From NCBI GenBank assembly GCA_024278755.1, contig JAJRSO010000023.1:1-64000 (forward strand): a DNA stretch of 64,000 nucleotides, read 5' to 3'. The notes below the pieces were generated by a model that was not told the DNA's origin, did no database searches, and was given only the letters and a program-made list of their open reading frames with translations. Source of the DNA: Calditrichota bacterium. Lineage in GTDB: Bacteria > Calditrichota > Calditrichia > Calditrichales > Calditrichaceae. Every line of letters starts with the position of its first letter. Positions within the stretch are counted from its first letter, which is position 1. A program made the position numbers and the translations under genes. Of this stretch, positions 45,492 through 64,000 are shown piece after piece.

Positions 45492-46343
45492 ATGACAATG
45501 GTCAGCACAACAGAAGCTGTGGCGGATTCTGCAGCGGAGCATAGTGAGAGTCTGGGTGGCTGGATTACCCACCATCTGCAAAATGGGCCGGAATGGCACC
45601 CGTTTCCGGGTGTACATATCCATCTTCCGCATATACCACCGTTTGATATTTTGGGAATGCATATAGATTTATCGATTACGAATCATGTGGTAATGTTGTG
45701 GTTTGCCGCTCTGTTTCTTCTTATCATGTTTCTGCTCTCTTTAAAACCCGCAAAAAAGGTACAAACCGGATTTGGCGCTCTGCTGGAAATGCTGGTTATT
45801 TTTATCCGTGACGAAGTGGCCATTGCCAATATGGGCGAAAAAGAGGGTCGGCGTTTTACGCCTTTTCTGGTCACCGCTTTTTTCTTTGTTCTCGTCAGTA
45901 ACCTGATGGGACTGATTCCCATGTTTTCCACTTCTACGGCTAATATCAATGTTACGGCGGGGTTGGCTTTAACCACTTTTGGCGCCACGCAGTATTTTGG
46001 CGTAAAAGAGCAGGGTTTGATCGGCTATTATAAAAACCTGGTGCCGCATGGCGTACCGGTTTTATTGTGGCCACTGATGTTTGTAATCGAAATTATGGGG
46101 CTTATTGCCAAGCATGTCGCCTTAACCATTCGTTTGTTTGCCAATATGAATGCCGGGCATATCGTTTTGTTTGCTTTTTTAGGGCTGACAATTTTATTTA
46201 AAAGTTATATGGTTTCCCCTGTTTCTGTGGGGTTTGGTGTATTCGTGTATTTTCTGGAATTGTTGGTGGCCCTGATTCAGGCCTATATTTTTACCGTTTT
46301 ATCGTCATTGTTTATCGGGATGAGCGTGAATCCCGAGCATTAA
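45492..46343 (+). CDS. atpB: F-type ATP synthase subunit a
   Basis: 283 residues. An N-terminal His-rich extension (LGGWITHHLQNGPEWHPFPGVHIHLPHIPPF) precedes the membrane core with FFFVLVSNLMGLIPMF, the half-channel Arg in AKHVALTIRLFANMNAGHIV, and FLELLVALIQAYIFTVLSSLFIG. Together with the c-ring it forms the ion channel of the rotor. 15 bp after the I-like gene. Confidence 0.95.
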   Translation: MTMVSTTEAVADSAAEHSESLGGWITHHLQNGPEWHPFPGVHIHLPHIPPFDILGMHIDLSITNHVVMLWFAALFLLIMFLLSLKPAKKVQTGFGALLEMLVIFIRDEVAIANMGEKEGRRFTPFLVTAFFFVLVSNLMGLIPMFSTSTANINVTAGLALTTFGATQYFGVKEQGLIGYYKNLVPHGVPVLLWPLMFVIEIMGLIAKHVALTIRLFANMNAGHIVLFAFLGLTILFKSYMVSPVSVGFGVFVYFLELLVALIQAYIFTVLSSLFIGMSVNPEH

Positions 46344-46400
46344 GGATGTAAATAATAAATAAATCGTTTAACAAAAGAAATAATTTAAGGAGGTCCAGAA

Positions 46401-46637
46401 ATGGGTGAATTGGCATTAGGTTTAGCATACTTGGCAGCCGGACTCGGAGCGGGTATTGTAACGGTTGGCGCTGGAATAGGTATTGGTAAAATTGCAGCTT
46501 CTGCAATGGACGGAACGGCGCGTCAGCCGGAAGCGGGCGGAGCGATTCGTATTACGATGATTATCGCTGCGGCGATGATCGAAGGCGTTGCTTTGTTTGG
46601 CGCTGTAATTTGTTTCCTTTTGGCAAGTATTAAATAA
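46401..46637 (+). CDS. atpE: F-type ATP synthase subunit c
   Basis: 78 residues, two helices, with the ion carboxylate Glu in AAAMIEGVALFGAV and the conserved loop DGTARQPE. The Gln and the Ser/Thr after Glu used by sodium-type c subunits are not seen (GIGIGKIAA; E-G-V), so a proton-driven ring is likely. Very strong ribosome site TAAGGAGG, as expected for the most abundant subunit. Confidence 0.95.
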   Translation: MGELALGLAYLAAGLGAGIVTVGAGIGIGKIAASAMDGTARQPEAGGAIRITMIIAAAMIEGVALFGAVICFLLASIK

Positions 46638-46649
46638 CAGGATAAAACT

Positions 46650-47144
46650 ATGCTTGATATAGATCCCGGAATGATACTCTGGACATGGATCACCTTTGGT
46701 ATCGTGCTGGCTCTTTTGTCCAAATTAGCGCTTAAGCCCATATTGGCAGCGATTGAAAACCGCGAGAGTTCCATCCGCAGTGATATCGAAAAAGCGCAGC
46801 AACAGCGGGATGAAGCCGAGGCGTTGATTGCCCAGCATAAAGAAAAAATGGCAGCCGCCGAGGCCGAAGCGCAGGCTTTGCTGAAAGAAAGCCGCAAGCT
46901 GGCGGATAAAGCCCGTGACGAGCTGCTGGAAAAAACACGTTCCGAATCGGCCAAGCTGCTGGAAAAGGCCAAAGAAGAAATTGAACAGCAAAAAGAAAGC
47001 GCGCTTGCTTCGTTGCGTACAGAGGTTGCCGATCTCGCCGTGGGAGCGGCCGAGAAGATAATTTTGCAGAATCTGGACAAAGAGAAGCAAAAGGCGGTCG
47101 TTGATGAATATATCAAGGCCATGCCCGATACGCTTAAGAATTAA
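46650..47144 (+). CDS. atpF: F-type ATP synthase subunit b
   Basis: 164 residues: one N-terminal membrane helix (MILWTWITFGIVLALLSKLALKP), a long Ala/Glu/Lys coiled coil and the delta-binding end (LRTEVADLAVGAAEKII). Forms the peripheral stalk. Only one b gene, so the stalk is a b2 homodimer. Confidence 0.95.
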   Translation: MLDIDPGMILWTWITFGIVLALLSKLALKPILAAIENRESSIRSDIEKAQQQRDEAEALIAQHKEKMAAAEAEAQALLKESRKLADKARDELLEKTRSESAKLLEKAKEEIEQQKESALASLRTEVADLAVGAAEKIILQNLDKEKQKAVVDEYIKAMPDTLKN

Positions 47145-47158
47145 AAAGGATAAATCAG

Positions 47159-47692
47159 TTGAGCCGAGTAGCAAAACGATACGCAAAAGCGCTTTTCGCG
47201 CTGGCAAAAGAAGAATCCCTTTTAAATGAAGTCGGGAAGGATCTCGCCCTGATCTCCGCGTTTAACCAACAGAGCGCTGATTTTAGTACGTTTTTATCAA
47301 ATCCGATTATTAATGAAAAGGATAAGATTAAAGTGTTGCGAGAAATGTTTCGGGGTAAAGTGCAGGCGCTGACGCTGAATTTTTTGAGCCTGCTTTCCGA
47401 AAAAAGACGTATTCCTTTTTTGCCACAAGCTGCCGAAGAATTCCGCCTGATGATGCTGGATTATGCCGGCGAGGTAGAGGGAGAATTGATTAGCGCTCAA
47501 AAGTTAAGTCCTGAGCAAATCGATAAGATTAAAGCAAAGGTAGAGCGTATTACCGGAAAAACGGTATTCCTTGCGGAAAAAGTAGATAAAACGGTTCTCG
47601 GCGGGTTTATTGTGAAAGTGGAAGACTGGGTTTTGGATAACAGTATCCGGTATCAGCTGGCGAAGCTTCGTGAACAGCTGGCCGCCCGCTAA
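47159..47692 (+). CDS. atpH: F-type ATP synthase subunit delta
   Basis: 177 residues from TTG 47159, chosen because AAAAGGA lies 8 bp upstream and the product begins with family-typical [16 protein letters not shown]. Ends with [28 protein letters not shown]. Couples the peripheral stalk to the alpha3beta3 head. Confidence 0.93.
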
Positions 47693-47715
47693 CAACAAAT
47701 AAAGAGGTAATATCG

Positions 47716-49236
47716 ATGGGTAATGCAGTAAGACCAGATGAAGTCTCTGCAATTCTGAAGAAACAGTTAAAAGATTTCGAAAAAGAAACAGACGTCTATG
47801 AAGTTGGCACTGTCTTGTATGTGGGGGACGGAATTGCCCGCGTACATGGCCTGGAAAAGGTGATGGCCGGTGAGCTGGTTGAATTTCCGAGTGAAGTAAT
47901 GGGTATGGTGCTTAACTTAGAAGAAGACAACGTGGGTGTTGTTTTATTTGGCGATGATACGCTGATTAAAGAAGGCGACACCGTTAAACGTACACAAAAG
48001 GTTGTACAAGTTCCCACCGGCGACGCCATGGTTGGCCGCGTGGTCGATCCACTGGGGCGTCCTATTGACGGGAAAGGCGCCATTGATACCGACCAGTTTA
48101 TTTTACTGGAACGTAAAGCAACGGGTGTCGTTACACGGCATCCCGTGGATCAGCCCCTGGCTACCGGTATTAAGCCGATTGATTCCATGATTCCTATCGG
48201 AAGAGGACAGCGTGAATTGATTATTGGCGACCGGCAAACGGGTAAAACGGCCGTGGCAATCGACACTATTATTAATCAAAAAGGCAAAGATGTAATTTGC
48301 ATCTATGTGGCCATTGGTCAAAAGGCCTCAACCGTAGCCAAAGTGGTTAAAACGCTGGAAGAATACGGCGCCATGGAACACACGGTTGTTGTAGCCGCAA
48401 ATGCCAGTGACCCAGCGCCAATGCAGTTTATCGCCCCGTATGCCGGAGCGGCAATCGGCGAATTCTTTCGCGATAACGGACGGCACGCATTGGTTGTTTA
48501 TGATGATTTAACCAAACACGCCTGGGCCTATCGTCAGGTATCACTGCTTCTGCGCAGGCCTCCGGGGCGCGAAGCCTATCCGGGCGATGTGTTTTACCTG
48601 CATTCACGCCTTTTGGAACGTGCCGCGAAACTCAATGAAAAATTAGGCGGCGGGTCTTTAACCGCGCTGCCCATAATTGAAACGCAGGCGGGTGATGTTT
48701 CCGCCTATATTCCGACCAATGTAATTTCCATTACGGACGGACAGATTTTCCTGGAATCGAATTTATTTTATTCCGGTGTGCGTCCGGCGATTAATGTGGG
48801 TATTTCGGTTTCCCGCGTGGGGGGGAGTGCGCAGATTAAAGCGATGAAACAGGTTGCCGGACGTCTGCGTCTGGATTTGGCCCAGTATCGTGAAATGGAA
48901 GCCTTTGCCAAATTCGGTTCCGATTTGGACGAAGCTACACAAAAACAGTTACGTCGCGGCGAACGCCTCGTGGAAATTTTAAAACAGGGGCAATATGTGC
49001 CCATGCCGTTTGAAAAACAGATTGTAATCATTTATGCCGGTACAAACGGCTATTTGGACGCCCTTCCGGTTAACTCTTTGGGACAGTTTGAACAAGAGTT
49101 TATCGAACATATTGAGTTAAAATATTCCGATATTTTAACAGAAATTGCCGACAAAAAAGTTTTTTCGGATGAATTGAAAGAGAAGTTAAATACGGTGATC
49201 GAAAGCTTCCTGTCCGGTTTCAAGGTTGAGGAATAA
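47716..49236 (+). CDS. atpA: F-type ATP synthase subunit alpha
   Basis: 506 residues, standard length. P-loop [39 protein letters not shown], and [34 protein letters not shown]. Non-catalytic nucleotide-binding subunit of F1. ATG 47716, AGAGGTAA upstream. Confidence 0.97.
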
Positions 49237-49238
49237 GC

Positions 49239-50108
49239 ATGGCTACTTTACGGGAAATACGGGATCGCATTTCTTCGGTAACCAGTACGCAGCAAATTAC
49301 CAAAGCAATGAAAATGGTTGCAGCGGCCAAGTTGCGCCGGGCGCAGGAGAATATTTTAGCATTCCTGCCATATTCATATGAACTACGGGGAATGATTGGG
49401 CATCTTGTAGCGCTATCGGGTGATTTAACCGAAATTCCTCTGCTGGAAAAACGTCCGGTTGAAAAAGTGTTGATCGTGGTTGTTACTTCCGATCGGGGGT
49501 TGTGCGGCGCTTTTAACGGAAATATTATCCGTCATGCCGTACAACGTATTGCCGAGTATTCCAATCGTGAAGTTGCTGTGTTTGCAGTAGGTCGTAAAGC
49601 GTATGAATTTTTCAGCAAAAGGGATTACACCGTACACGATCATGTGATCAATATATTCAACCATTTGCATTTCGAAAGCGCCGCGGATATTTCCGGGCGG
49701 CTGGTAGCGCTATATCTTGCCGAAGAATTTGATCGAATTGAAATCATCTATAATGAATTTAAATCGGCCATTCAGCAGACGCTGCGTGCAGAACAATTTT
49801 TGCCCTTTGTGCCCGATGAAGAAATGGAAAAAGCCGGCGAAGAAATAGATTTTATTTATGAGCCGGGTAAAGAAGAAATTCTGAATCAGCTCATTCCGAA
49901 ACATCTGAATGTTCAGATTTGGCGGACACTGCTGGAAAGTAACGCAGCCGAACAGGGTGCGCGGATGACGGCTATGGAAAGCGCGACCGAAAATGCGCAG
50001 GAATTGATCGAACGACTGACCATCTTTTACAATCGTTCCCGTCAGGCGGCCATTACAACCGAAATTTCGGAAATTGTCAGCGGCTCTGAAGCTTTGAAAG
50101 AAAATTAG
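49239..50108 (+). CDS. atpG: F-type ATP synthase subunit gamma
   Basis: 289 residues. N-terminal IRDRISSVTSTQQITKAMKMVAAAKLRRAQ and C-terminal ESNAAEQGARMTAMESATENAQELIERLTIFYNRSRQAAITTEISEIVSG are the paired helices of the central shaft. Starts 2 bp after atpA. Confidence 0.97.
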   Translation: MATLREIRDRISSVTSTQQITKAMKMVAAAKLRRAQENILAFLPYSYELRGMIGHLVALSGDLTEIPLLEKRPVEKVLIVVVTSDRGLCGAFNGNIIRHAVQRIAEYSNREVAVFAVGRKAYEFFSKRDYTVHDHVINIFNHLHFESAADISGRLVALYLAEEFDRIEIIYNEFKSAIQQTLRAEQFLPFVPDEEMEKAGEEIDFIYEPGKEEILNQLIPKHLNVQIWRTLLESNAAEQGARMTAMESATENAQELIERLTIFYNRSRQAAITTEISEIVSGSEALKEN

Positions 50109-50114
50109 CATTAG

Positions 50115-51527
<1,413 letters not shown>

Positions 51528-51560
51528 AAATCATCCCTCTCCGGGAGAACAGAAAAAAAT

Positions 51561-51592
51561 AAAGATGGCAGGTTCCTGTCATCTTTTTATTT
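51561..51592 (+). terminator. Hairpin/attenuator between atpD and atpC
   Basis: AAAGATGGCA (51561-51570) pairs with TGTCATCTTT (51577-51586, one G-T pair), loop GGTTCC, followed by TTTATTT. It has the form of a leaky intrinsic terminator inside the operon, 34 bp after the atpD stop; atpC starts 42 bp later. Confidence 0.7.
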
Positions 51593-51633
51593 AAGTTTAT
51601 CTCTTAATAGTCGAGCATAATAAGGAAAGTTAA

Positions 51634-52041
51634 ATGGCATCCGAACTCATTTTGGAAATTGTTACACCTTTTGGGGAAATTTTTAACGAACCAATTGTCC
51701 GTTGTACATTACCAGGGGCCGAAGGTCAGTTTCAGGTATTAAAAGGTCATGCGGCTCTGATGTCTACCATTGAAATAGGTTCAGTAAAAATTGAATTTGC
51801 GGATGCAAAGCCGGCTTACGCTGCGGTAAGTAGCGGGTTCTGTGAAATAAAAGACAACCGGGTAAAAATTATTGTCGAATCGGCAGAGTTTTCCGGTAAT
51901 ATTGATGTGGAACGTGCGGAATCATCTAAAAAACGAGCTGAAGAGAGACTTTCCTTGAAGAGCGCTGATTTTGATACTGACAGAGCAAAAGCTTCCCTAA
52001 TGCGTGCCCTCAACAGGTTAAAGGTCTCTAATTTTAAGTAA
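51634..52041 (+). CDS. atpC: F-type ATP synthase subunit epsilon
   Basis: 135 residues. The N-terminal beta-sandwich (LILEIVTPFGEIFNEPIVRCTLPGAEGQFQVLKGHAALMSTIEIGSVKI) is typical and the C-terminal helical hairpin follows (VERAESSKKRAEERL...RAKASLMRALNRLKV). Rotor subunit with possible inhibitory C-domain. Separated from atpD by 106 bp and a hairpin; a separate expression level is likely. ATG 51634 after AAGGAAAG. Confidence 0.93.
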   Translation: MASELILEIVTPFGEIFNEPIVRCTLPGAEGQFQVLKGHAALMSTIEIGSVKIEFADAKPAYAAVSSGFCEIKDNRVKIIVESAEFSGNIDVERAESSKKRAEERLSLKSADFDTDRAKASLMRALNRLKVSNFK

Positions 52042-52178: not shown

Positions 52179-54779
52179 ATGAAATCAAGAACCCTTCTCA
52201 GAAGTACTCTTTTCATCGTATTAATCTTATTCTCAAATTCTTTCGCAACCGGTGTTACCGATCAGAAACTGTTCGATTCGGCGCTTAAGTCGTATGTGAA
52301 TGATTTGGTGATCCGTCATGGTAAAAGTACCATGGACAGGGAGCGTTTTTTAGTTCAGCAGCTACGGATGATAAATGATGAAATGAAATCACGCATTACC
52401 GGTATTTCGGATATTCGCGACAACTATTTTAAGCGGCTCGACAAGCTTTTATCCGAAGTTCAGGCGCTTAAACAACGCTTATCCGGAGCAGGCACAGGCC
52501 GGTTAGCTGTTTTTGCCTCTGATGTGGAACAGAAAATTCAGGACATCATCGACAGCGGTAAGCTGAATTATAAAAAGCAAAAAGCCATCGAAGATGCCGT
52601 GCAACTATTGCATGTTGCGGAAGAAATGGTACAGCTCGACCCCAATGCCCACCTGGAATCCAATCCCGGGTTTTCTGATAACCTAAGTAAAACACAAAGT
52701 AAATTGCAAAATACATTCGGCGGCGTAAAGAAAATTAGACCCGCAGTTAAAGAAACACCGGTCACCCAGGCGACGGTTTACAATATTTATAAAGAGTGGA
52801 AAAAGACGGAGTTAATTAAATATCAGGTACGCTGGACCGATGTGCAAATCCTTAAACGGCGTCTGTTTAAAAACGGTACATCCGCCCAGCAGGAGCAGAT
52901 GTTTAAGCGTGAATTACGCCAGGCTTCCGAAGCATTTAATTATGGAATGTACCGTTTAGCCGAACGGTCTTTCTCCGAAATCCTGCGTAGTTATAAACAG
53001 CTTGGGAACATGGATGACGTGCTTTTTTTTAAAGGTCAGTCCAATTATCTGCTGGGGCGTTACCATCAGGCGGAAGAAGATTTTAATAACTTTACCATCG
53101 ATTATCCATCCTCTCAATATCTTTCCGAAGCATATTTGAATCTGATGCATATCAGTTTTCATTTTAACCGTTATGCGGATGTACTGGCCAGTTATGACGC
53201 AATGCGTTCTATGTTGCCTGCCGGCGATCCCAAAATATATCAGATGACGTTTATGGCGTCTGTTGCCGCTTTAAAAGACAATCAGTTTGAAAAATGTATT
53301 GAACTTTCGTTCGAAATTCCGTCTTCTTCGACCCTGTACAGAGAAGCGCGCTATATTTTGGCAGAAGCGTATGCGGGTATCGGTAATTATGAAGAGTCGA
53401 AAAAGGTGTTTACTACATTGATTAACGATCGCAAAATGGAACCGGAATTTCGTTTTACAATTTTACTTAAACTGGGCTACCTGAGTTATGAAGAAATGGA
53501 TTATTACGGCGCCTTAAAATATTTTGATCAGATTGCAGGAGCCTTTAGCGAATATGACCGTGTTTTAATTGGGTACGGCTGGACCTTGTACAAGATGGAA
53601 CTGGCCAAAACCAAGGTATCGGAAAGAAACTTCAGTGAAACCCAAAAATACCTCGAAGCGCTGCTGGATAATTTTTACGGTTCCGATTATCTGCTGGAAG
53701 CGCGAACGCTGTTGGCTTATACAGAACAGTTACAGGAAAATGTAGACGCCGCTCTGGAAGATTTTGAATATGTTTTTGCCGCTCGTGACGTAAAACTGTT
53801 TTCAGATAGCCTGAATTCGGAATATGATCAGTTGAGAAGCGCGATGAAAAGTGCGAAAAGTCTGCAGAACAAAGCTTTGCAGAAAAATAACCCCGCTGCA
53901 TTTGGCAAGGCGTATTCCATTGTAAAACGGTTACGCAGGCCGCTAACCCGTTTGGGGTATATGGATATGAGCGCTAGCGGAGTTGCCGTAAAAAGCGAAG
54001 TGTCCCGTTTAAACAAGCAGCTTGCCGAACTTGCCTCTCTTAAGAAAAAAGCGGAAGCGCGCGGTAAAAAAGCGCTGGTTAGACGTATTGAAGATATGCA
54101 ACTTAAAATATATCGTGCTGTTAATTCGGTTTCGGTAACACGGCAATCATCCATTGGTATGAATTATTTCGATGCCCATCCTCTGGCGCGAAAAGAGAGT
54201 GTTGTCGAAAATAATAATAAAAAAATAACGGAGTTACGGGCGGATACGCAAAAACAACGCCAGGATATTACAAGCCGGCTGACTGCGCTGGATTTTGAAA
54301 TTCAAAATGCTCGCGCCCAAAAAGATTACCGTAAAATGGTTCGTCTGGAGTTAAGCAGGGAGCGCCTGGCGGATTTTGCAAAGAAACTGGATTTTCTTGA
54401 TACACGCGTATATGCTTCAAATCCTATTAATACGGGTATTAATTTAGAATACTGGAGTAATTACAGCGCTTTTGGAATGACCAATGTCCGTTTTTCCGTC
54501 CGTTTGAAAAAGGCGGGGCAAATCGCCAGCTTCCAGAAACAAATCGAACAAATAAACGATTTTCTCGAAATTCGTAAACGGAATATAGAACATAAAATTG
54601 AGCAGATAGATGATGAGATAACTTTGATGACGCGCCGCGTTCGCCGGCAAGAACGTATACGCGAACGGGAAGAATTAAAACGTCAGTTCGAAGAAAGTTA
54701 TTTTGATACACACGATACCGAATTGAATTATGATCAGGGTACCACGCAGCCGCCTAAACTGCGTGATGAAGAAAATTAG
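52179..54779 (+). CDS. Exported TPR/coiled-coil protein of the envelope-motor cluster
   Basis: 866 residues with signal peptide MKSRTLLRSTLFIVLILFSNSFA. After a helical N-part come TPR repeats at ~245-520 (FNYGMYRLAERSFSEILRSYKQ, LLGRYHQAEEDFNNFTIDYPSSQYLSEAYLNLMHISF, GIGNYEESKKVFTTLINDR, EEMDYYGALKYFDQIAGAF), then a long Arg/Lys/Glu coiled coil to the C-terminus ending in a Tyr-rich acidic tail. Probably a periplasmic scaffold. First of seven closely spaced genes of the ExbBD/AgmX-type machine; the giant TPR gene follows 28 bp later. No individual family recognised. Confidence 0.8.
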   Translation: MKSRTLLRSTLFIVLILFSNSFATGVTDQKLFDSALKSYVNDLVIRHGKSTMDRERFLVQQLRMINDEMKSRITGISDIRDNYFKRLDKLLSEVQALKQRLSGAGTGRLAVFASDVEQKIQDIIDSGKLNYKKQKAIEDAVQLLHVAEEMVQLDPNAHLESNPGFSDNLSKTQSKLQNTFGGVKKIRPAVKETPVTQATVYNIYKEWKKTELIKYQVRWTDVQILKRRLFKNGTSAQQEQMFKRELRQASEAFNYGMYRLAERSFSEILRSYKQLGNMDDVLFFKGQSNYLLGRYHQAEEDFNNFTIDYPSSQYLSEAYLNLMHISFHFNRYADVLASYDAMRSMLPAGDPKIYQMTFMASVAALKDNQFEKCIELSFEIPSSSTLYREARYILAEAYAGIGNYEESKKVFTTLINDRKMEPEFRFTILLKLGYLSYEEMDYYGALKYFDQIAGAFSEYDRVLIGYGWTLYKMELAKTKVSERNFSETQKYLEALLDNFYGSDYLLEARTLLAYTEQLQENVDAALEDFEYVFAARDVKLFSDSLNSEYDQLRSAMKSAKSLQNKALQKNNPAAFGKAYSIVKRLRRPLTRLGYMDMSASGVAVKSEVSRLNKQLAELASLKKKAEARGKKALVRRIEDMQLKIYRAVNSVSVTRQSSIGMNYFDAHPLARKESVVENNNKKITELRADTQKQRQDITSRLTALDFEIQNARAQKDYRKMVRLELSRERLADFAKKLDFLDTRVYASNPINTGINLEYWSNYSAFGMTNVRFSVRLKKAGQIASFQKQIEQINDFLEIRKRNIEHKIEQIDDEITLMTRRVRRQERIREREELKRQFEESYFDTHDTELNYDQGTTQPPKLRDEEN

Positions 54780-54807
54780 AAAATCGTAAACCAAGTTTTA
54801 AAAGCGG

Positions 54808-57800
54808 ATGACTGCTATGATATTTCAATCAAAAAATATAAAACAGAATGCGAAATTTATCCTGCTAGCATTTTTATTTGTTATGTTCACGCAGTCTGGC
54901 ATTTTTGCTCAGGCAGCTAAAACGAACGGCGGTACGGATACCCTGTTTAATAAAATTTCGATTGAAGATTTATTGAAGATTAAACAACATTACAAAGAAA
55001 AAGTTAACGATCTGCGTAAGGAAGAGGAATCTTATCGTCTTAAGGGGATGGACTGGAGCGCTAATTTTCTTAAAGAAAAAGGTGTAAATATTGCCGATCG
55101 GGATAAGATATATATCCGTCTTGCCGAATACTATATAGAAGACGCCGAAAAAAAATATGATGCCGAAGTGGATGAGTATGACATAAAATATGATGAATAT
55201 GATAAACAACTGGCTCTCTTTGATAAAAAGCAAATTGAACAGGAACCCGTGGAACCGCAGTTTCCGAAATTTGATTATTCAAAAGCCATCGATATTTATG
55301 ATAAGTTACTAAATGAATATCCTTCCAGTGATTACGCGGACGATGCGTTGTATGGAAAGGCATGGCTTTCGGAAAAGATGAATCTGGGCGCCAAAAGCCG
55401 GCAGCTTTACCGTGAAGTAATAGATAAATATCCGGACAGCCCTTTTGCCCCGGAATCGTATATGCGGCTTGCGGAATACTATTTTGCGCCCCGTCTTGAT
55501 AAAACGGACGAAGAGCAAACCGTTTTGGAAACCAGAAAAGCCATTCAGTTATATAAAAACGTATTAAAATACAAGGGTTCAAAAAAGTACGATGAAGCGC
55601 TGTATAAGCTGGGCTGGAGTTATTATAAGTTAGCGGCGCGTGAGCCAAAATACTATAACGATGCCATTACCTATTTTATTCTTACGGCAGATGATATTGA
55701 ACGTTCTCAGAAGCTGGATCCGGCCAAAAAAATATCCAACCCGGATGTACGTAACGAAGCGATTGAATACATTGGCATCAGTTTTACCGATGACGCCTAT
55801 ACCAAGCAGGGTGTGGATAAAGCGCGGCATCTGTTGGAGCGTATAAACGATCGTCCCTACGGACCGGAAATAATGGAATCCATCGGCTCTACTTATAAAA
55901 AAATAGATGAACCCGAAAAAGCCATTTATGCTTACGAAACTTTGTTGGATATGTATCCGCAATTCGAACGTGCTCCGGAAATACAACATAATATTGCCAT
56001 GTCGCTTTATAGCGCCGGCAAAGACGCCGAGGCCTATGTGGCCCGTCAAACATTATATGAGAGTTACCGACCGTCCACCCTGTGGTATTCCGAGCTTGAA
56101 AATTCAGACAATCCCGATAAAGTGAAATACTTAAAGTCGGCTTATAAATTAAGCGAAGCGGCTTTGCGAACCAATCTGCTTTTGGATTTGGAAGCGGCTG
56201 AAGAGATGGATTCCCAAAAGCAGGACGGAACCGTTTATTATTCCAAGGTTGCGGATGAGTGTAAACTGTACCTTGACATTTTTCCGGCAGATTCTAATGC
56301 GTACGATGTGAACTGGTCCTATGCATTGCTGTTAGACAGTCGCTTGGGTCGGTTTGAACAGGCCTTTGAAGAATATATAAAAGTTAGTAATGATTATCTG
56401 GAAGACAGCCATCAGGAAAATGCGGCAATTAATGCGGTTGGCGTTGCCGATACACTGGTAAAAATGAAATATGGAACCAATGACAGCATTTCAATAAATA
56501 TTGCTGATGTCGCCAAGCTAAGTCCGGAAGAATTAACGCCCGAAGAAACGCGTTTAATAGAAGCGTATGATAACTACATTCGGCTTTTTCCGGCAGGTGA
56601 ATACACGCCAAATTTTTTAGCTTCTGCCGGCGGCATCTATTACAATCATAAAAAATTCGCCGAATCAAAAGTGTACTTTCAAACTTTGGTACGGCGTTTT
56701 CCGGGCGCCGAGCAGAAAAGTTTAGCGATGCGTTCTATTATGGATTCGTATTTTGCGCTGGGTAAGTTTAAAGATAGTGAAATGGTCGCTAAGCGCATAA
56801 TGAGCGAAAGCGCCATACCGGAAGAACAAAAGAAATTTGCCCGGACACGTATGGGGCAGGCTATTTTTAAGAACGCCGAATATTTAGAAGAGCAGGGCGA
56901 TTATTTTACAGCCGCTACAGAATATTTCCGGGTTTTTACAGAAGCCCCCGGCGAAACGAAGATGGTTGAGCGGGCGCTCTTAAACAGTGGGCTTAATTTC
57001 CAAAAATCAAAAGACTGGGTTCGTGCGGTTAGCGTTTACGATACTCTGGTAACCCGTTTCCCGAATTCCAAACTGGCCGTTCCCGCTTTGCAGAATATGG
57101 CTGAAGATTACAAAGAACTGGAACAGTATTCCAAAGCGGCGGGCGCCTACGAACGTATTTTTACCGATTTCGGTACTTCCGAAAATGTGGATGCCGCATT
57201 GTATAATGCCAGCTTCTACTATAAAAAAGGAAAAGACTGGAATAATGCTATTCGTGTAAATAATCTGTATATAAAAACCTTTCCGAAACAAAGTTTTGCC
57301 ACCGATTTATTTTTTACCAATGCCGAGCTGTATTTAAAACTAAACAATGTTGCGGAAGCTAACAAGATTTACGAGCAATTTGCAAAACGTTTCCCGGATG
57401 ATCCGCGTACGGTATCCGCTTACTATGAACGCGGTAAATATTATCTCGAGAATGGACAAACAGCACTGGCTAAGGTAGAGTTTAATAAGGCAATTGCCCA
57501 AAGCGAAAATTTTAAGAAAAAGGGAAAAGACCCCAATCCTTTCATAGCGGGAGAAGCTGTGAATTCACTGGCAGAAATTCTGCATAAAGAATTTATTTCC
57601 AATAGGCTCACGCAACCGCCAAGTAATATAAAAGCAAAGCTGGCTTCAATGCGTTCTACGATGAAAAAACTGAACTCAAATTATAGTAAAGTGCTTTCCT
57701 TTGGTTCGCCACGCAGCTTTGAAGCGGTTTTTAATATTGCCCGTTCCTATGAAGAATTCGCGAAAATCTTTACCATGCAGGAAATCAATCCGGATTTAAA

Positions 57801-59607
57801 TGAAACCAAGGCTTTCGTAGAAAAAAAGAAAATAAACGAACAATCTGCCGGTTTATACGAAAAAGCGGTTGAACAATATAAAAAGGCTATCGAAAATATT
57901 CCTGTAATTGCTCAGAAGCTGGGCGTGAATATGGAAGCGCCTGAAGTTGCCGAACCGTCACAGGTCGATACCGTAGCTTCGGAAGATGAAGTAAAACGTG
58001 CGGTTGAAACCGATTCCACACGGGAGTTGGCGCATAAATGGTATTCCAAAGCCAAAGATAAAATATCGGAATTGCTTTATACAGAGGCCTCTTTAACCTC
58101 CGAAAACGTACAGCAGGCTATTCAGATGAAAGCGCCCCAAAAAGATCCGGTACAGCGTATTATTTTCCGTCGCGCAATTCTTTCGAAGGTTGCGGCGCCA
58201 GCCGTTAAACAGACCATTGCCGCCCATATCCGAAATATTCAGGAAGCGGAGGCGCTTGGCTTATCTAATAAATATGTGGAAGAATCGAAACGTCAGGTGT
58301 TACTTACTTCCAATATAATCGGCAGCGAGTTGGAAGTAATTGCTACCTCTGCATTTACCGAATATCAACGTTTAACAGCCGAAACGGCGAACCTGGTAGA
58401 AAAAGAATTCGGCTCCAAAACCGCCCGGGGACTGGATTATTACGGACTCGATAACGATGCCAACCAAATGCTGGATTACGTAAAGATTTTATCGCAGGAT
58501 GTATTAAATGCCTACGCAAAAACACTGATTCTGGCTGAAGAAAACAACATTAAAAATGATTTGGTGAAAAATACGCAGGAACGTCTGGTACGTTATGCGG
58601 TTGAAAAAGCGGATATGTTATCGGCAGAAGCTGAAAAGGCAAAAGAAAAGAGCGCCTACTATCAGGTGCGGTTCGACAGCACCGAAAACTACAATTACGA
58701 TGATGCGGCCGGTTTCTTCGAAAACTATATGTTTTCTCTGACCGATAATGCAAAAAGTATTATGGAACAGGCTTTTGAATATCAGCAGCAGTATGCTATA
58801 AACAACTTGTGGGCAAATAAATTGTTATTGCGTCTGATCCGGCTCGACCCGATTACCTATTCGGCAAATATCGAAAAAGAACGGGTTGAAATCTATTCGG
58901 ATGAAGACTGGAAATACTCCACTACCTATTTTGCCGAACAGTGGACAAAACCCGATTTTGATGACAGTAACTGGAAATATGCGGTGGTAATTCCCAGTAC
59001 CGATAACCCGTTTGCTATCCTAAATGTGAATCCTCAGGCAATCTGGACGCTTCAGCCGCAGGCGGAAGCCACATTACCCGTTGCCGACAGCACCTACCGG
59101 GATTCGAGTGTTTTTGCCGATTCTACGGTTGCCGACAGTATGATGTCTGCTTCGGCCGATTCCGCCGCGGGAATTACAGACACAGTCGCATTCGTTAACA
59201 CGGATAGTCTGGTCTTCTTCAGACGAACATTTGATTTGTCCGGTACGCCGTTGGGAGGCTCTATTTATATCACTGCCGACGACGACTACCGCGTATACCT
59301 GAACGGCGAATATCTGATGGATGATGAATCCAATGCGTACGCCGTGCTTGATTCGCTGGATTTTTACACACTGGAAGTGTATCTTAAAAAAGGAAAGAAT
59401 GTAATAACCATTGATGTTGAAGATAAAAACCTGACGGCAGGCGGTCTTAAATTCTATTCGTATTTTGAACTTTTACCGGCCGATGTGACAGCCGCAGCAG
59501 AAGAAAAAGCTAAAGTGAAGAAGGTATTTGTCGAACCTGATCTACTCAGAAAAGTCAACATCCTAAATAAAAATCGCATATCCCTTAGCAAAGGAAACAA
59601 AAAATGA
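54808..59607 (+). CDS. Giant exported TPR protein with C-terminal beta-sandwich
   Basis: 1599 residues, the largest gene here. Signal peptide at ~10-35 (FILLAFLFVMFTQSGIFAQ). From ~100 to ~1000 runs a long series of TPR repeats (AIDIYDKLLNEYPSSDYADDALYGKAWL, AIYAYETLLDMYPQFERAPEIQHNIAMSLY, RAVSVYDTLVTRFPNSKLAVPALQNMAEDY, EANKIYEQFAKRFPDDPRTVSAYYERGKYYL and others), like YbgF/CpoB and BamD but far longer. A helical part follows, then at ~1370-1570 a domain with FAEQWTKPDFDDSNWKYAVV and IYITADDDYRVYLNGEYL, resembling galactose-binding-like beta-sandwiches. Likely the main periplasmic adaptor of the motor complex. Start could also be ATG 54817. Confidence 0.8.
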   Translation: MTAMIFQSKNIKQNAKFILLAFLFVMFTQSGIFAQAAKTNGGTDTLFNKISIEDLLKIKQHYKEKVNDLRKEEESYRLKGMDWSANFLKEKGVNIADRDKIYIRLAEYYIEDAEKKYDAEVDEYDIKYDEYDKQLALFDKKQIEQEPVEPQFPKFDYSKAIDIYDKLLNEYPSSDYADDALYGKAWLSEKMNLGAKSRQLYREVIDKYPDSPFAPESYMRLAEYYFAPRLDKTDEEQTVLETRKAIQLYKNVLKYKGSKKYDEALYKLGWSYYKLAAREPKYYNDAITYFILTADDIERSQKLDPAKKISNPDVRNEAIEYIGISFTDDAYTKQGVDKARHLLERINDRPYGPEIMESIGSTYKKIDEPEKAIYAYETLLDMYPQFERAPEIQHNIAMSLYSAGKDAEAYVARQTLYESYRPSTLWYSELENSDNPDKVKYLKSAYKLSEAALRTNLLLDLEAAEEMDSQKQDGTVYYSKVADECKLYLDIFPADSNAYDVNWSYALLLDSRLGRFEQAFEEYIKVSNDYLEDSHQENAAINAVGVADTLVKMKYGTNDSISINIADVAKLSPEELTPEETRLIEAYDNYIRLFPAGEYTPNFLASAGGIYYNHKKFAESKVYFQTLVRRFPGAEQKSLAMRSIMDSYFALGKFKDSEMVAKRIMSESAIPEEQKKFARTRMGQAIFKNAEYLEEQGDYFTAATEYFRVFTEAPGETKMVERALLNSGLNFQKSKDWVRAVSVYDTLVTRFPNSKLAVPALQNMAEDYKELEQYSKAAGAYERIFTDFGTSENVDAALYNASFYYKKGKDWNNAIRVNNLYIKTFPKQSFATDLFFTNAELYLKLNNVAEANKIYEQFAKRFPDDPRTVSAYYERGKYYLENGQTALAKVEFNKAIAQSENFKKKGKDPNPFIAGEAVNSLAEILHKEFISNRLTQPPSNIKAKLASMRSTMKKLNSNYSKVLSFGSPRSFEAVFNIARSYEEFAKIFTMQEINPDLNETKAFVEKKKINEQSAGLYEKAVEQYKKAIENIPVIAQKLGVNMEAPEVAEPSQVDTVASEDEVKRAVETDSTRELAHKWYSKAKDKISELLYTEASLTSENVQQAIQMKAPQKDPVQRIIFRRAILSKVAAPAVKQTIAAHIRNIQEAEALGLSNKYVEESKRQVLLTSNIIGSELEVIATSAFTEYQRLTAETANLVEKEFGSKTARGLDYYGLDNDANQMLDYVKILSQDVLNAYAKTLILAEENNIKNDLVKNTQERLVRYAVEKADMLSAEAEKAKEKSAYYQVRFDSTENYNYDDAAGFFENYMFSLTDNAKSIMEQAFEYQQQYAINNLWANKLLLRLIRLDPITYSANIEKERVEIYSDEDWKYSTTYFAEQWTKPDFDDSNWKYAVVIPSTDNPFAILNVNPQAIWTLQPQAEATLPVADSTYRDSSVFADSTVADSMMSASADSAAGITDTVAFVNTDSLVFFRRTFDLSGTPLGGSIYITADDDYRVYLNGEYLMDDESNAYAVLDSLDFYTLEVYLKKGKNVITIDVEDKNLTAGGLKFYSYFELLPADVTAAAEEKAKVKKVFVEPDLLRKVNILNKNRISLSKGNKK

Positions 59608-59915
59608 AAAAAGGAATAGCGCTGTTTTTAGCAGTTTCCGGGGTTTTGATATTTAGTTCCAAAGCGACAATCGCTCAGGATGTGGGCAATAATGTAATCG
59701 AATTAAAAACCGCCGAAATTAAGGTAAAAATCGAAACGCCGCAGGTAAAACTGTACAGCAGTCGTATCAAACCCGAATTTGATGATGTGAATCTCGAAAA
59801 ATCATTTAAAAAAGAAATCATTGGTCTTGGCGAAACCTTTGAAATAAAAAAAACAATTCGACCTAATACAACAAAGCGAATTAATATAGATAAGCTATTA
59901 AAGAAATTACGATAA
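59604..59915 (+). CDS. Small exported protein of unknown function
   Basis: 103 residues overlapping the giant TPR gene in ATGA, so translationally coupled. Signal peptide MKKGIALFLAVSGVLIFSSKATIAQ; the mature ~78 residues are charged (20-odd Lys), with repeats of K-x-E-T/I-K type and no cysteine or known motif. I do not recognise it. Being within the motor operon, it may be a small periplasmic partner. Confidence 0.7.
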   Translation: MKKGIALFLAVSGVLIFSSKATIAQDVGNNVIELKTAEIKVKIETPQVKLYSSRIKPEFDDVNLEKSFKKEIIGLGETFEIKKTIRPNTTKRINIDKLLKKLR

Positions 59916-59938
59916 TTAATTAGTGGAGGGATTCTTCT

Positions 59939-60595
59939 ATGTTTTTAGTGCAGTTTGGTAAATCATTTGCCTGGTCAGCGGAAGGTGCGGTGTTTATGTA
60001 CGCCATCGCTTTATTTGCAGCTTTAGCGGTTGCAATTGCTGCTGAAAGGATTTATTACATTGTTGTACGCTCCAATGTGAACGCTGATAAATTTATGGCT
60101 GAAATTAGAAAACTGGTTGCCGGTGGAAATATGGAACGTGCCATTCAGCTCTGTGAAAAGGGGAAAATGAAAGCGCTTCCGTTTGTTGTACTTCGCGGTC
60201 TTAAAAGAGCAAATGAAAGTGAAGAACTTGATTTCAGAGCTATTCAGAATGCCGTTGACGAAGGCACACTGGAAGTAATTCCGAAACTAAAAGAACGAAC
60301 AAACTATCTTTCTATGCTGGCAAACGTTGCAACATTGACCGGTTTAATGGGAACGATTTACGGCCTTATCTTATCATTCCAGGCGGTTGGTAGCGACTCC
60401 GTTTCCGAAGCCGATAAAAGCCGGATGCTGGCAGCCGGTATCGCTGCTGCCATGAATACGACTATCTTTGGTCTGATGGTCGCGATTCCCACATTGATTA
60501 TTTATACCTACATTGCAAATCGTACCAGTAAAATTATTGATGAGCTGGACGAGCATCTTGTTAAATTAATCAACCTAATTACCGGCAACCGTTAA
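59939..60595 (+). CDS. MotA/TolQ/ExbB-family proton channel protein
   Basis: 218 residues, three membrane helices (about 18-36, 120-150, 160-185). TolQ/ExbB signatures: a cytoplasmic loop with IRKLVAGGNMERAIQLCEKG and the pore region LSMLANVATLTGLMGTIYGLILSFQAVG...LAAGIAAAMNTTIFGLMVAIPTLIIYTYI. Forms the ring of a proton-driven motor around an ExbD/TolR dimer. Strong GTGGAGGG ribosome site. Two ExbD-like genes and an AgmX-like gene follow at once. In this arrangement AglR of Myxococcus gliding is the closest concept, by context and not by measured similarity. Confidence 0.93.
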   Translation: MFLVQFGKSFAWSAEGAVFMYAIALFAALAVAIAAERIYYIVVRSNVNADKFMAEIRKLVAGGNMERAIQLCEKGKMKALPFVVLRGLKRANESEELDFRAIQNAVDEGTLEVIPKLKERTNYLSMLANVATLTGLMGTIYGLILSFQAVGSDSVSEADKSRMLAAGIAAAMNTTIFGLMVAIPTLIIYTYIANRTSKIIDELDEHLVKLINLITGNR

Positions 60596-60618
60596 GCACT
60601 TTCCGAAGGAATTAAATT

Positions 60619-61170
60619 ATGGCTTATAAACCTTCATTACGCCGCAAAAGTGATGAACTGGACATGGAACTGGATATTCGTCCGGTCATGAACCTGATGG
60701 TTGTGCTGATTCCGTTGCTCATCGCGGGTGCGGAGTGGGTAAAATTAGGCATAATCGAAATTAATGTACCGCCGGCAAAAACAGGCGGCCCCGGAACCGG
60801 TGACGATCAGAATGAACAAAAGGAACAAGCCAAAAAACTTGGTTTAACCATTGCCGTTTCTGAAACAGGTATTACCATTGGAAATGCCGGTATGATTCTT
60901 TCCGGTGAAAAAGGGGAAGGCCCTACCGTCGAGAGAAAAGAAGACGGCAGTTACGATTATGCAGTATTCAGAGAAAAACTTATCGAAATCAAAAAGAAAA
61001 TAATTGGCCAGGGATTTGTCGATGAAAATCGGGCGGTACTTACGGCTTCGGCAGATATTGAGTACCAGATTATCGTGGATATTATGGACAACCTTCAGAC
61101 CTATAAAGACGATGAAGAAAAAGTTCATGCCCTGTTTCCCGAAATAAACTTCAGTAAAATACTACAATAA
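60619..61170 (+). CDS. ExbD/TolR-like protein with Asn in place of the channel Asp
   Basis: 183 residues. One membrane helix (~23-40), then a periplasmic domain with IEINVPPA and an end of ExbD type (ADIEYQIIVDIMDNL). In TolR and ExbD the helix carries an essential Asp (PLLDVLLVL in TolR); here the matching stretch is DIRPVMNLMVVLIPLL, with Asn25 at that place. It therefore probably cannot carry protons by itself. Ribosome site AAGGA. The next gene is a second ExbD-like protein that keeps the Asp. Confidence 0.88.
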   Translation: MAYKPSLRRKSDELDMELDIRPVMNLMVVLIPLLIAGAEWVKLGIIEINVPPAKTGGPGTGDDQNEQKEQAKKLGLTIAVSETGITIGNAGMILSGEKGEGPTVERKEDGSYDYAVFREKLIEIKKKIIGQGFVDENRAVLTASADIEYQIIVDIMDNLQTYKDDEEKVHALFPEINFSKILQ

Positions 61171-61195
61171 TTGCTGAATGACGGAGTAAAGTTCA

Positions 61196-61684
61196 ATGGC
61201 GTTTCAACCATCAAAATCCAAAAAGAATCTTAAAGAAGAAGAGGGTGCATTAAATATGAACTCGATGATGGATATGATGACCATCATCCTATTGTTCCTG
61301 CTTAAATCTTTTTCTACCGAAGGCGCATTAATTACCCCTTCGGAACAGCTACGACTTCCTGTTTCACAGCAGGGCGAAAAACCAAAAAAGGAACTGACGG
61401 TTTCCATTGCTAAAAACAGTTTAATGGTAAACGATGCAGTGATTATGGACGTGGCTGATATTGGAAAAGAGGTAATGCTCATACCGCCGCTTGCCAGCAG
61501 ATTATCGGACTATGCGGCTCAGGAACATGAACTGGAAATTGATGTGGGTAAAGAGTTTACACATGAAGTAATTATAGAGGGTGATGAAAAGATCCCTTTT
61601 GAACTTCTCTTTAAAGTGATGTACACCTGCAGCAAAACCGAGTTCTATAAAATGAGGCTCTTAACCGTAAAAAAGGGCTCTTGA
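61196..61684 (+). CDS. ExbD/TolR-like protein with the channel Asp
   Basis: 162 residues. Membrane helix ~24-40 with Asp26 in LNMNSMMDMMTIILLFLL, the protonatable residue of ExbD/TolR. Periplasmic domain with VSIAKNSLMVNDAVIMDVADIG and HEVIIEGDEKIPFELLFKVMYTCSKTEFYKMRLLTVKKGS, typical ExbD ending. Likely pairs with the Asn-bearing paralogue upstream inside the TolQ/ExbB-like ring. GGAG upstream of ATG 61196; 25 bp after the first paralogue. Confidence 0.9.
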   Translation: MAFQPSKSKKNLKEEEGALNMNSMMDMMTIILLFLLKSFSTEGALITPSEQLRLPVSQQGEKPKKELTVSIAKNSLMVNDAVIMDVADIGKEVMLIPPLASRLSDYAAQEHELEIDVGKEFTHEVIIEGDEKIPFELLFKVMYTCSKTEFYKMRLLTVKKGS

Positions 61685-61725
61685 CCAGTTAGTTAAATTC
61701 TGTCAATAAAGAAAGAGTTGTGAAC

Positions 61726-62805
61726 ATGCCAAATGTACAACATGCCCAAAGGGGATCCGGAGGTTTTAAGTTAGTTTCTTTCCCAAAAGAATTCGAACGG
61801 AATTTCTGGGAAGAACTGGATCGGCGTTTTTATATTATTCTGTTAAGTTCTCTGGCAATTGTTTATGGAATTATTATTTTTATGGCCAATACAGAATATT
61901 CTTCAGATTTTGTAGAAAACCAGATCCGGGAGAAATACTTAAAAAAGTTTTATGAGGCCGAATTCGTTACCGAAACACCGGTTGAAAAAGTAGATGAAAC
62001 CGGTCCCGGAATGGGAGAAGAAGAAAAGAAAGAAGAACCGAAAAAAGATGAGCGTGCCGTAAAAGATCAGGGAAAACGGGCCGAGGTAAAGGGCCAGTCG
62101 GCTGCCGAACGTCGGGCTGCTGCTCGTGCAAAAGCTAAGAGAAGAGGACGTCAGAGAAATAGTATGGAACAATCCATTGCCGGGCAGGGCGTATTTGCCG
62201 AGTTATCTGCCGGCGGCGGTGGCGGTTCAGGAGAAGCGGTGGCCGATGTACTTGGTGACGACGCGGCAGGCGGTTTCGGAAATCTGGACGAAGTTCTTAG
62301 CGGAGTTGGCGGATTGCAAACGGCGACTTCATCTTCGAGACGTTCACAGATGGGCGCCCGTAAGCTGGGTGGCGGCGCATCCGGTACAGCCGGGATTGAC
62401 GACCTGATTAAAGGCGGTATCGGTCAGACCACTTCTAAGAGTATTGCACGCCGCGGTGATTTTTCTATTCGTTTCGAAAAAGGAAGCGTAAGTGGAAAAG
62501 CGTCAAAATCCACGTCCCGTTCGGCAGAAGCTATCGGTCGGGTTGTTACGCAGCATCAGGATGCTGTAGAGAATTGTTATCGTAAAGAAGCGCGTTTAAA
62601 TCCAAATCTTAAGGGAAGTATTGCCATACAGTTTACCATTCAGCCAAACGGTCGGGTCGCCCGTGTTAAAATCACCCGGTCTACGCTGAAGAACAGAAAA
62701 GTAGAATCCTGCGTAAAACGACGCGTAAGTAGCTGGCGTTTTCAGGCAATCAATCCCAAAGAGGGCAGCGTTACCTTTAGCCAAAAATTTGTATTTAGTA
62801 GTTAA
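61726..62805 (+). CDS. TonB-like protein with AgmX/PglI C-terminal domain
   Basis: 359 residues from ATG 61726 (spacing from GAAAGAG fits better than GTG 61720). Cytoplasmic N-terminus, one membrane helix (~35-53: FYIILLSSLAIVYGIIIFM), an acidic/basic Lys-Glu-Pro stretch (~80-130), a Gly-rich low-complexity region (~155-240), and a C-terminal domain with VENCYRKEARLNPNLKGSIAIQFTIQPNGRVARVKI...VESCVKRRVSSWRF, two conserved Cys. This is the AgmX/PglI tail domain, related in role to TonB: it carries motor force across the periplasm. Last gene of the cluster; a perfect terminator follows. Confidence 0.88.
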   Translation: MPNVQHAQRGSGGFKLVSFPKEFERNFWEELDRRFYIILLSSLAIVYGIIIFMANTEYSSDFVENQIREKYLKKFYEAEFVTETPVEKVDETGPGMGEEEKKEEPKKDERAVKDQGKRAEVKGQSAAERRAAARAKAKRRGRQRNSMEQSIAGQGVFAELSAGGGGGSGEAVADVLGDDAAGGFGNLDEVLSGVGGLQTATSSSRRSQMGARKLGGGASGTAGIDDLIKGGIGQTTSKSIARRGDFSIRFEKGSVSGKASKSTSRSAEAIGRVVTQHQDAVENCYRKEARLNPNLKGSIAIQFTIQPNGRVARVKITRSTLKNRKVESCVKRRVSSWRFQAINPKEGSVTFSQKFVFSS

Positions 62806-62908: not shown

Positions 62909-64000
62909 ATGACCCGAACACATACCTGTGGTGCCTTAAACAAAAAAAACCTGGGACAAAAAGTTGTTTTGACCGGATGGGTAAATAAATGGCGAGACCT
63001 GGGCGGTTTGATTTTTATTGATTTGCGCGACCGTTACGGCAAAGTGCAAACGGTGTTTAATCCGGAAGAAAACGCGGAGGTCTATGAACAGGCCAAAGCG
63101 TTGCGCAGCGAAGATGTAGTTGAAATTAAGGGAACCGTTTCCGCCCGTCCGGACACTATGATTAACCAAGAAATGAAAACCGGCGAAATCGAAATTGCCG
63201 CTTCTTCCTTTCGTATTTTAAATAAAGCGAAAACTACACCGTTTGAAATTTTAGATGATATCGAGATAAATGAAGAATTGCGTTTAAAATACCGTTATCT
63301 GGATTTGCGACGTAGCAGCCTGCAGCGAAATTTACTGGTTCGCAGCAACGTGTATCATATTATCCGCGATTATTTTTATAAGAATGAATTTTTAGAAATT
63401 GAAACGCCTATCCTGATGAAAAGTACGCCGGAAGGCGCTCGCGATTTTTTAGTGCCTAGCCGAAACTATCCCGGGCGGTTTTATGCTTTGCCACAATCAC
63501 CCCAAACCTATAAACAATTATTAATGGTAGCCGGATTTGACCGCTATTTCCAGGTGGTGAAGTGTTTCAGGGATGAAGATTTACGTCGTGACCGTCAGCC
63601 GGAGTTTACGCAGAGAGATGTGGAGATGTCCTTCGTTGATGAAAATGATATTATTCGGATCGGTAGCGAACTGGTACAAAAGGTATTTAAAGAGGTTCTC
63701 GATATTTCCATGGAGATGCCTATCAAACGCCTGACTTTTAAAGAAGCATTTGAACGGTTTGGTTCGGATAAACCCGACTTACGTTTTGGGATGGAAATTC
63801 ACCGCTTAAATGAAGTGTTTACAAATTCCGATTTTAACGTTTTTAGCAGTGTGCTTGCATCTGACGGGGAAATAGCAGCGCTTGTGGTAAAAAACGGCGC
63901 CGATTTTAGTCGTAAAAAAATTGATAAATTAATCGACCGTGCCAAAGAATTAGGCGCAAAAGGGTTGGCCTATTGGAAATATCAGCAGGGAGAATTTTCT
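62909..64000 (+). CDS. aspS: Aspartyl-tRNA synthetase (partial, 3' end outside)
   Basis: 364 residues visible from ATG 62909, with GGAG 9 bp upstream. Class II synthetase charging tRNA-Asp. The N-terminal anticodon-binding OB domain (VVLTGWVNKWRDLGGLIFIDLRDRYGKVQTVF) leads to motif 1 region (RSNVYHIIRDYFYKNEFLEIETPILMKSTPEGARDFLVPSR), QSPQTYKQLLMVAGFDRYFQ, and motif 2 (FRDEDLRRDRQPEFTQRDVEMSF). The bacterial insertion domain starts near residue 285. Motif 3 is beyond the edge. Whether it is the discriminating or Asn-mischarging type cannot be told. Confidence 0.96.
   Translation, partial: MTRTHTCGALNKKNLGQKVVLTGWVNKWRDLGGLIFIDLRDRYGKVQTVFNPEENAEVYEQAKALRSEDVVEIKGTVSARPDTMINQEMKTGEIEIAASSFRILNKAKTTPFEILDDIEINEELRLKYRYLDLRRSSLQRNLLVRSNVYHIIRDYFYKNEFLEIETPILMKSTPEGARDFLVPSRNYPGRFYALPQSPQTYKQLLMVAGFDRYFQVVKCFRDEDLRRDRQPEFTQRDVEMSFVDENDIIRIGSELVQKVFKEVLDISMEMPIKRLTFKEAFERFGSDKPDLRFGMEIHRLNEVFTNSDFNVFSSVLASDGEIAALVVKNGADFSRKKIDKLIDRAKELGAKGLAYWKYQQGEFS

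Follow-up and report, generated by a model that had tools for sequence, protein, structure and literature searches.

Tandem ExbD paralogues with a conserved Asn/Asp pair at the proton-carrying site in an AglRQS-like gene cluster of Calditrichota

Introduction

Can a proton-driven motor of the ExbB/TolQ class work with a proton-carrying acid in only one of its two ExbD-type chains? The question is raised by a locus of a Calditrichota bacterium in which two tandem ExbD-type genes, named ExbD1 and ExbD2 here, encode Asn and Asp, respectively, at this site. The locus lies in the window, which is the whole stretch of 64,000 nucleotides that was analysed (contig JAJRSO010000023.1). The need for two proton sites in 5:2 motors and the sharing of one ring by AglQ and AglS were stated as open questions in PMC9389320, according to which both proteins carry the conserved Asp and it is not known whether they form homo- or heterodimers. 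Core clusters with gltD/E/C-type TPR genes, gltG, and aglRQS gathered in one region were reported also outside the deltaproteobacteria (Luciano 2011, PMC3169522); an AglQ-AglS tree was built in that study, and the proton-site residue is not discussed there. A limited literature search found no mention of an Asn/Asp ExbD pair in the literature on such motors.

Gene cluster in the window

The motor genes form a same-strand cluster (positions 52179-62805, plus strand) comprising two TPR genes, a 103-aa ORF, ExbB, ExbD1, ExbD2, and a GltG/TonB-like gene. The first gene (52179-54779) encodes a secreted 866-aa protein with TPR/YbgF matches, which is a probable Glt-type periplasmic or outer-membrane partner and shares 22% identity with a 942-aa protein in the equivalent position of the distant locus L222. 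The second gene (54808-59607) encodes a secreted 1599-aa TPR protein, which is GltD-like by its YbgF/TPR matches and by BLASTP (E=3e-27 to a TPR frame adjoining gltG in a myxobacterial genome, L219; E=3e-47 to L221; E=0 to L222). GltE and GltC were not separately identified beside these two large TPR genes of the cluster. The 103-aa protein (59604-59915), located directly 5' of ExbB, has an apparent signal peptide, no Pfam match, and a homologue in L220 (E=2e-23), and short ORFs of similar length hold its place before ExbB in most loci of the class. An extra core gene is absent from Myxococcales according to PMC3169522, and the 103-aa protein may be that gene product.

The ring subunit, an ExbB/TolQ/AglR-like protein (59939-60595; Pfam MotA_ExbB, 3.7e-24, 85.3 bits), has the pore motif GLMGT(139) and AMNT(174)T(175), in which T139 and T175 aligned with T145 and T178 of E. 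coli TolQ, indicating that the pore threonines are kept. ExbD1 (60619-61170; 183 aa, LDIRPVMNLMVVLIP) and ExbD2 (61196-61684; 162 aa, LNMNSMMDMMTIILL) matched Pfam ExbD (PF02472) with 37.5 bits (3e-9) and 56.0 bits (5.4e-15), respectively, both above the curated cut-off of 25.4. Single-chain models of low confidence (pLDDT 63 and 69) predicted transmembrane helices at residues 21-38 of ExbD1 and 21-39 of ExbD2. The best Foldseek match of both models was the ExbD periplasmic domain, which was weak, as was the sequence search of ExbD1 against PDB (E about 0.1). The last gene (61720-62805) encodes a GltG/TonB-like transducer with one transmembrane segment and an AgmX/PglI C-terminal domain (NCBIfam myxo_SS_tail, 103.1 bits, cut-off 40; TonB_C, 25.1 bits). 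Its score against NCBIfam GltG was 98.9 bits, far below the cut-off of 650, and covered model positions 322-646 only, with the FHA region missing.

The cluster is flanked by F-type ATP synthase genes (a, c, b, delta, alpha, gamma, beta, epsilon; 45492-52041) and an aspartyl-tRNA synthetase gene (62909-64000). The distant locus L222 (G229) likewise lies between F-type ATP synthase genes and aspartyl-tRNA synthetase.

Residues at the proton-carrying site

The preliminary description had claimed that the two paralogues differ exactly at the proton-carrying site, with Asn25 in ExbD1 and Asp26 in ExbD2, and this was borne out by the two tandem ORFs (codons AAC, 60691-60693, and GAT, 61271-61273, respectively). 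In HMMER alignments with solved ExbD (E. coli/Serratia) and TolR as references, both residues fell without gaps on the Asp of INVTPFIDVML and INIVPLLDVLL. The proton-carrying transmembrane Asp of PF02472 is therefore absent from ExbD1 and present in ExbD2, and a misalignment of the acid was ruled out by the ungapped alignments to ExbD and TolR.

ExbD1 was found in 37 of the 40 genomes of the class that were searched. Asn25 was invariant among the class orthologues (30/30), as was Asp26 (29/29); no Asp was found elsewhere on the ExbD1 helix, nor any class orthologue with Asp in both chains, so the claim stood on both counts. Decay or an assembly error at Asn25 was ruled out by the 30/30 conservation together with the use of two Asn codons. 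Ordinary ExbD/TolR controls had Asp in all cases (16/16). The genome itself contains five ExbD genes, namely the pair in the window, a single gene, and a second tandem pair, and the last three all encode Asp. This second pair (L002/L003, contig C12), which was included in the controls, has Asp in both chains in an unusual context (LSDIVF and MPDIIF).

Survey of homologous loci

A scan of 385 genomes with an ExbD1 profile detected homologous trios in many distant genomes. The ExbD1/ExbD2 states of the fetched loci were N/D in 85, D/D in 8, G/D in 3, and S/D in 2, with some loci counted twice. Because a search with an ExbD1 profile favours Asn, the scan was repeated in named genomes with ExbD2 as the sole seed. 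All 80 loci obtained had Asp in ExbD2. The neighbouring ExbD1, which was lost at a contig end in two loci and readable in 78, had Asn in 73, Ser in 1, Gly in 1, and Asp in 3, and thus a residue other than Asp in 75 of 78. Search bias as the source of the Asn excess was ruled out by this result. The source genomes included Calditrichota, candidate division KSB1, Chitinispirillaceae and Chitinivibrionales (Fibrobacterota), Raymondbacteria, Nitrospinae, Deltaproteobacteria, and Myxococcales, and both Asn-type and Asp-type ExbD1 were present in Myxococcota.

The Asp of ExbD2 was the only invariant column among 61 aligned homologues (61/61). The Asn of ExbD1 in the ExbD2-seeded loci was encoded by AAT in 41 cases and by AAC in 32, which argues that Asn was held by selection while its codon drifted. 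As judged from these alignments, conservation in ExbD1 is for a small residue without charge, which is Asn in nearly all cases, and the asymmetry at the proton site is genuine, holds across phyla, and has been preserved by selection.

ExbD1 and ExbD2 were almost always adjacent, downstream of one ExbB. In three cases, an N-type ExbD1 gene had no ExbD2 next to it within the sequence fetched (L079/G072, L086/G166, and L095/G143), and each of these genomes has an Asp-type ExbD2 elsewhere, in G072 about 2.4 kb away. The Asp-type ExbD1 genes of one family (L059, L060, and L061) were solitary, with no ExbB or ExbD2 nearby; in the two genomes checked among them (G379 and G109), ExbD2 was on a different contig.

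Phylogenetic analysis and counterparts of AglQ and AglS

A tree of 63 ExbD1, 61 ExbD2, and 16 general ExbD/TolR sequences resolved three groups with SH-aLRT values of 99, 99, and 95, and ExbD2 and the general group still held together after removal of the site columns (96 and 98). On this tree, ExbD1 and ExbD2 constitute two ancient clades separate from general ExbD/TolR. Since Asp is present in all general ExbD and ExbD2, it is likely ancestral, with a loss in ExbD1. Six state changes inside ExbD1 were counted by parsimony on the quick tree. The tree in which all non-Asp ExbD1 were placed in one clade had a log-likelihood 38 higher than that of the free quick tree and a p-AU of 0.82; a single non-Asp clade is thus not rejected, and one loss of Asp is sufficient. 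Gly and Ser in ExbD1 are probably later changes inside this clade.

A gliding-type myxobacterium, identified by its GltG match (G067; 1033 bits, cut-off 650), provided the comparison with AglQ and AglS. Its locus (L106) contains a ring ORF followed by ORFs of 162 and 194 aa, which match in length the AglQ and AglS of PMC3169522. The 162-aa protein fell in the ExbD1 clade on a long branch and the 194-aa protein in the ExbD2 clade, and both have Asp; in the AglQ-type protein it is found at residue 29 of the ORF as called, which differs by one from the published D28. The grouping of the window pair with AglQ and AglS thus held for the clades, ExbD1 with AglQ and ExbD2 with AglS, but not for the site, and the window pair is not simply another AglQ/AglS. 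AglS as the Asn-type relative was ruled out, because the counterpart of ExbD1 in the tree is AglQ, which has Asp.

In M. xanthus, proton conductance is lost and the machinery is paralysed when AglQ carries the D28N substitution (PMC3858216). The requirement of this Asp for conductance places the AglQ chain in the ring in M. xanthus, and since D28N paralyses the motor with the Asp of AglS still in place, a single Asp does not suffice there. The state that paralyses the M. xanthus motor is thus the normal one in the AglQ counterparts elsewhere.

Positions linked to the ExbD1 state

Two positions were associated with the residue at the ExbD1 site. The first is Pro32 of ExbD1 (60712-60714, plus strand), seven residues after Asn25; Pro at this position marks nearly all non-Asp ExbD1 (52/53) and was found in none of the 87 Asp-bearing chains. 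The second is T174 of ExbB (60458-60460, plus strand), immediately before the pore threonine T175. The equivalent TT was present in all 84 loci with Asn, Gly, or Ser in ExbD1 and in none of the Asp-type loci. When all locus records were counted, with some genomes in both collections, TT accompanied a neutral ExbD1 in 161 of 161, and the residue before the pore threonine in the 32 Asp-type ExbD1 records of the family was Asn in 29, Cys in 2, and Ala in 1, never Thr.

The correspondence between this pore residue of ExbB and the state of ExbD1 suggests a lumen-facing position of the ExbD1 site within the ExbB ring, which speaks against a location of ExbD1 outside the ring. Repeated independent covariation of the ExbD1 state with Pro and the ExbB Thr was dropped as an explanation, with one well-supported independent pair only. 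Pro(+7) and the ExbB Thr are best described, from the distribution of these residues, as subfamily signatures, and their links to the ExbD1 state rest on one or a few evolutionary events.

Proposed motor

Set beside the observed genes, the alignment of the site, the conservation of Asn and Asp across phyla, the two clades, and the association with Pro(+7) and the ExbB Thr, our preferred reading is a proton-driven 5:(1+1) motor of the ExbB/TolQ class and the Agl-Glt type, whose heterodimeric axle is fixed and has one site for protons, to which we assign a probability of about 0.6. A heterodimer is the simplest reading because each locus has one ExbB, the two ExbD clades are co-inherited, and the ExbB residue tracks the ExbD1 state. 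The ring would consist of five ExbB, enclosing a single ExbD1 helix and a single ExbD2 helix. Protons would be taken up and released only by Asp26 of ExbD2 through a single path, and Asn25 of ExbD1, permanently neutral and level with Asp26, would mimic a protonated Asp. An a:b motor uses a x b ions per turn (PMC9389320), and with one active site this rule gives five ions per turn and 72 degrees per ion. The single Asp would accordingly meet five ExbB per turn, using about five protons in net steps of 72 degrees, compared with ten protons per turn and 36-degree steps for two Asp. Rotation or displacement of the helices would be passed to the GltG/TonB-like protein and from there to the TPR proteins and the outer membrane.

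The turnstile model of PMC9389320 requires protonation to be exchanged between the two sites. Asn cannot take part in such an exchange; a cycle other than the turnstile would be needed, which counts against the one-site motor, as do the few N-type ExbD1 genes not adjacent to ExbD2 and the paralysis caused by AglQ D28N in M. xanthus. In an alternative cycle, the Asn chain would perhaps always be 'protonated', with rotation waiting on Asp26 alone.

The leading alternative is a homodimer of ExbD2, in which ExbB5-ExbD2(2) with two Asp is the motor and ExbD1 lies outside, either at the ring edge like the TonB and TolA helices or as a separate adaptor, its Asp lost as no longer needed. Ton and Tol motors are known to contain helices that bind at the edge (PMC12204202), and a chain so placed would be consistent with the Gly or Ser that takes the place of Asn in some few lineages, with the few ExbD1 genes that lie away from ExbB, and with Pro32 in a helix unlike axle helices; however, it would hardly account for an Asn kept exactly at the proton level through synonymous codon turnover, or for the correspondence of an ExbB pore residue to the state of ExbD1. 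The counterpart AglQ conducts protons through the equivalent residue (PMC3858216), and the locus already has an edge-type transducer in its GltG-like protein. We therefore regard this arrangement as unlikely, while taking it seriously.

Two separate homodimers, an active ExbB5-ExbD2(2) and an inactive or regulatory ExbB5-ExbD1(2) competing for ExbB, are less probable still. Both chains are ExbD-like and each could self-pair, and for AglQ and AglS themselves the choice is not settled (PMC9389320), but an inactive complex conserved 1:1 in one operon across about 40 family-level groups would be improbable, and no N/N motor lacking an Asp-type ExbD2 in the genome was found among the genomes checked. 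It is very improbable that a two-site motor is retained with Asp19 of ExbD1, the sole nearby acid (six residues before Asn25) and nearly invariant in Calditrichota, as the replacement carrier, because this position is often Asn outside the class (Asn in 27 and Asp in 20 of 53 non-Asp ExbD1) and corresponds in the alignment to Asn20 of E. coli ExbD, ahead of the helix predicted at 21-38.

Comparison with known motors

The window cluster resembles AglR-AglQ-AglS/Glt, which serves Myxococcus xanthus in gliding and in forming the spore coat, in its one ExbB-type and two ExbD-type genes, in the order of ring, clade-1, and clade-2 genes, in the GltG-type TonB-like transducer with the AgmX/PglI tail, and in the TPR partners. 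It differs in the Asn and Pro(+7) of ExbD1, in the TT of ExbB against CT in the myxobacterial protein, and in a GltG-like protein without the FHA part. The trio with two ExbD clades is thus present, whereas the AglQ-type Asp is replaced by Asn in all class members. Accordingly, the window system belongs with AglRQS/ExbBD by its architecture but lacks the two-Asp feature.

With ExbB-ExbD (Ton) and TolQ-TolR (Tol-Pal), the window proteins share the Pfam families, the helix position of the site, and the pore threonines; unlike these homodimeric systems with two Asp, the window has two diverged paralogues, one of them without the acid. A ring-and-axle proton motor, as proposed for the window, is also the design of MotA-MotB in the 5:2 rotary model (PMC9389320). 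MotB D22N, which is treated there as a protonation mimic, is engineered and present in both chains, whereas the neutral residue of the window is natural and confined to one chain. The TPH-vWA systems likewise have two different axle genes per TolQ-type ring gene, but both chains keep Asp (PMC12204202). For C. abyssi, the genome paper (PMC5317091) describes genes for flagella and type IV pili but no gliding machinery of the Bacteroidetes type.

The conserved Asn/Asp pair, with its ring and helix signatures, offers a natural experiment on the need for two sites in 5:2 motors, and it points to heterodimers for motors of the AglQ/AglS type. The few linked positions, Pro(+7) and the Thr before the ExbB pore Thr, are candidates for making the change that is lethal to the M. 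xanthus machinery tolerable. A broader reading, which we hold tentatively and at slightly less than even odds, is that natural 5:(1+1) rotary motors, in which each axle has a single proton site and a permanently neutral partner chain and a turn consumes about five protons, would be widespread, and the much-studied myxobacterial two-Asp motor would be the exception.

In one surveyed locus (L062, G260), two tandem ExbB-type genes were located upstream of the ExbD1-ExbD2 pair, so that the ring could be a mixed one.
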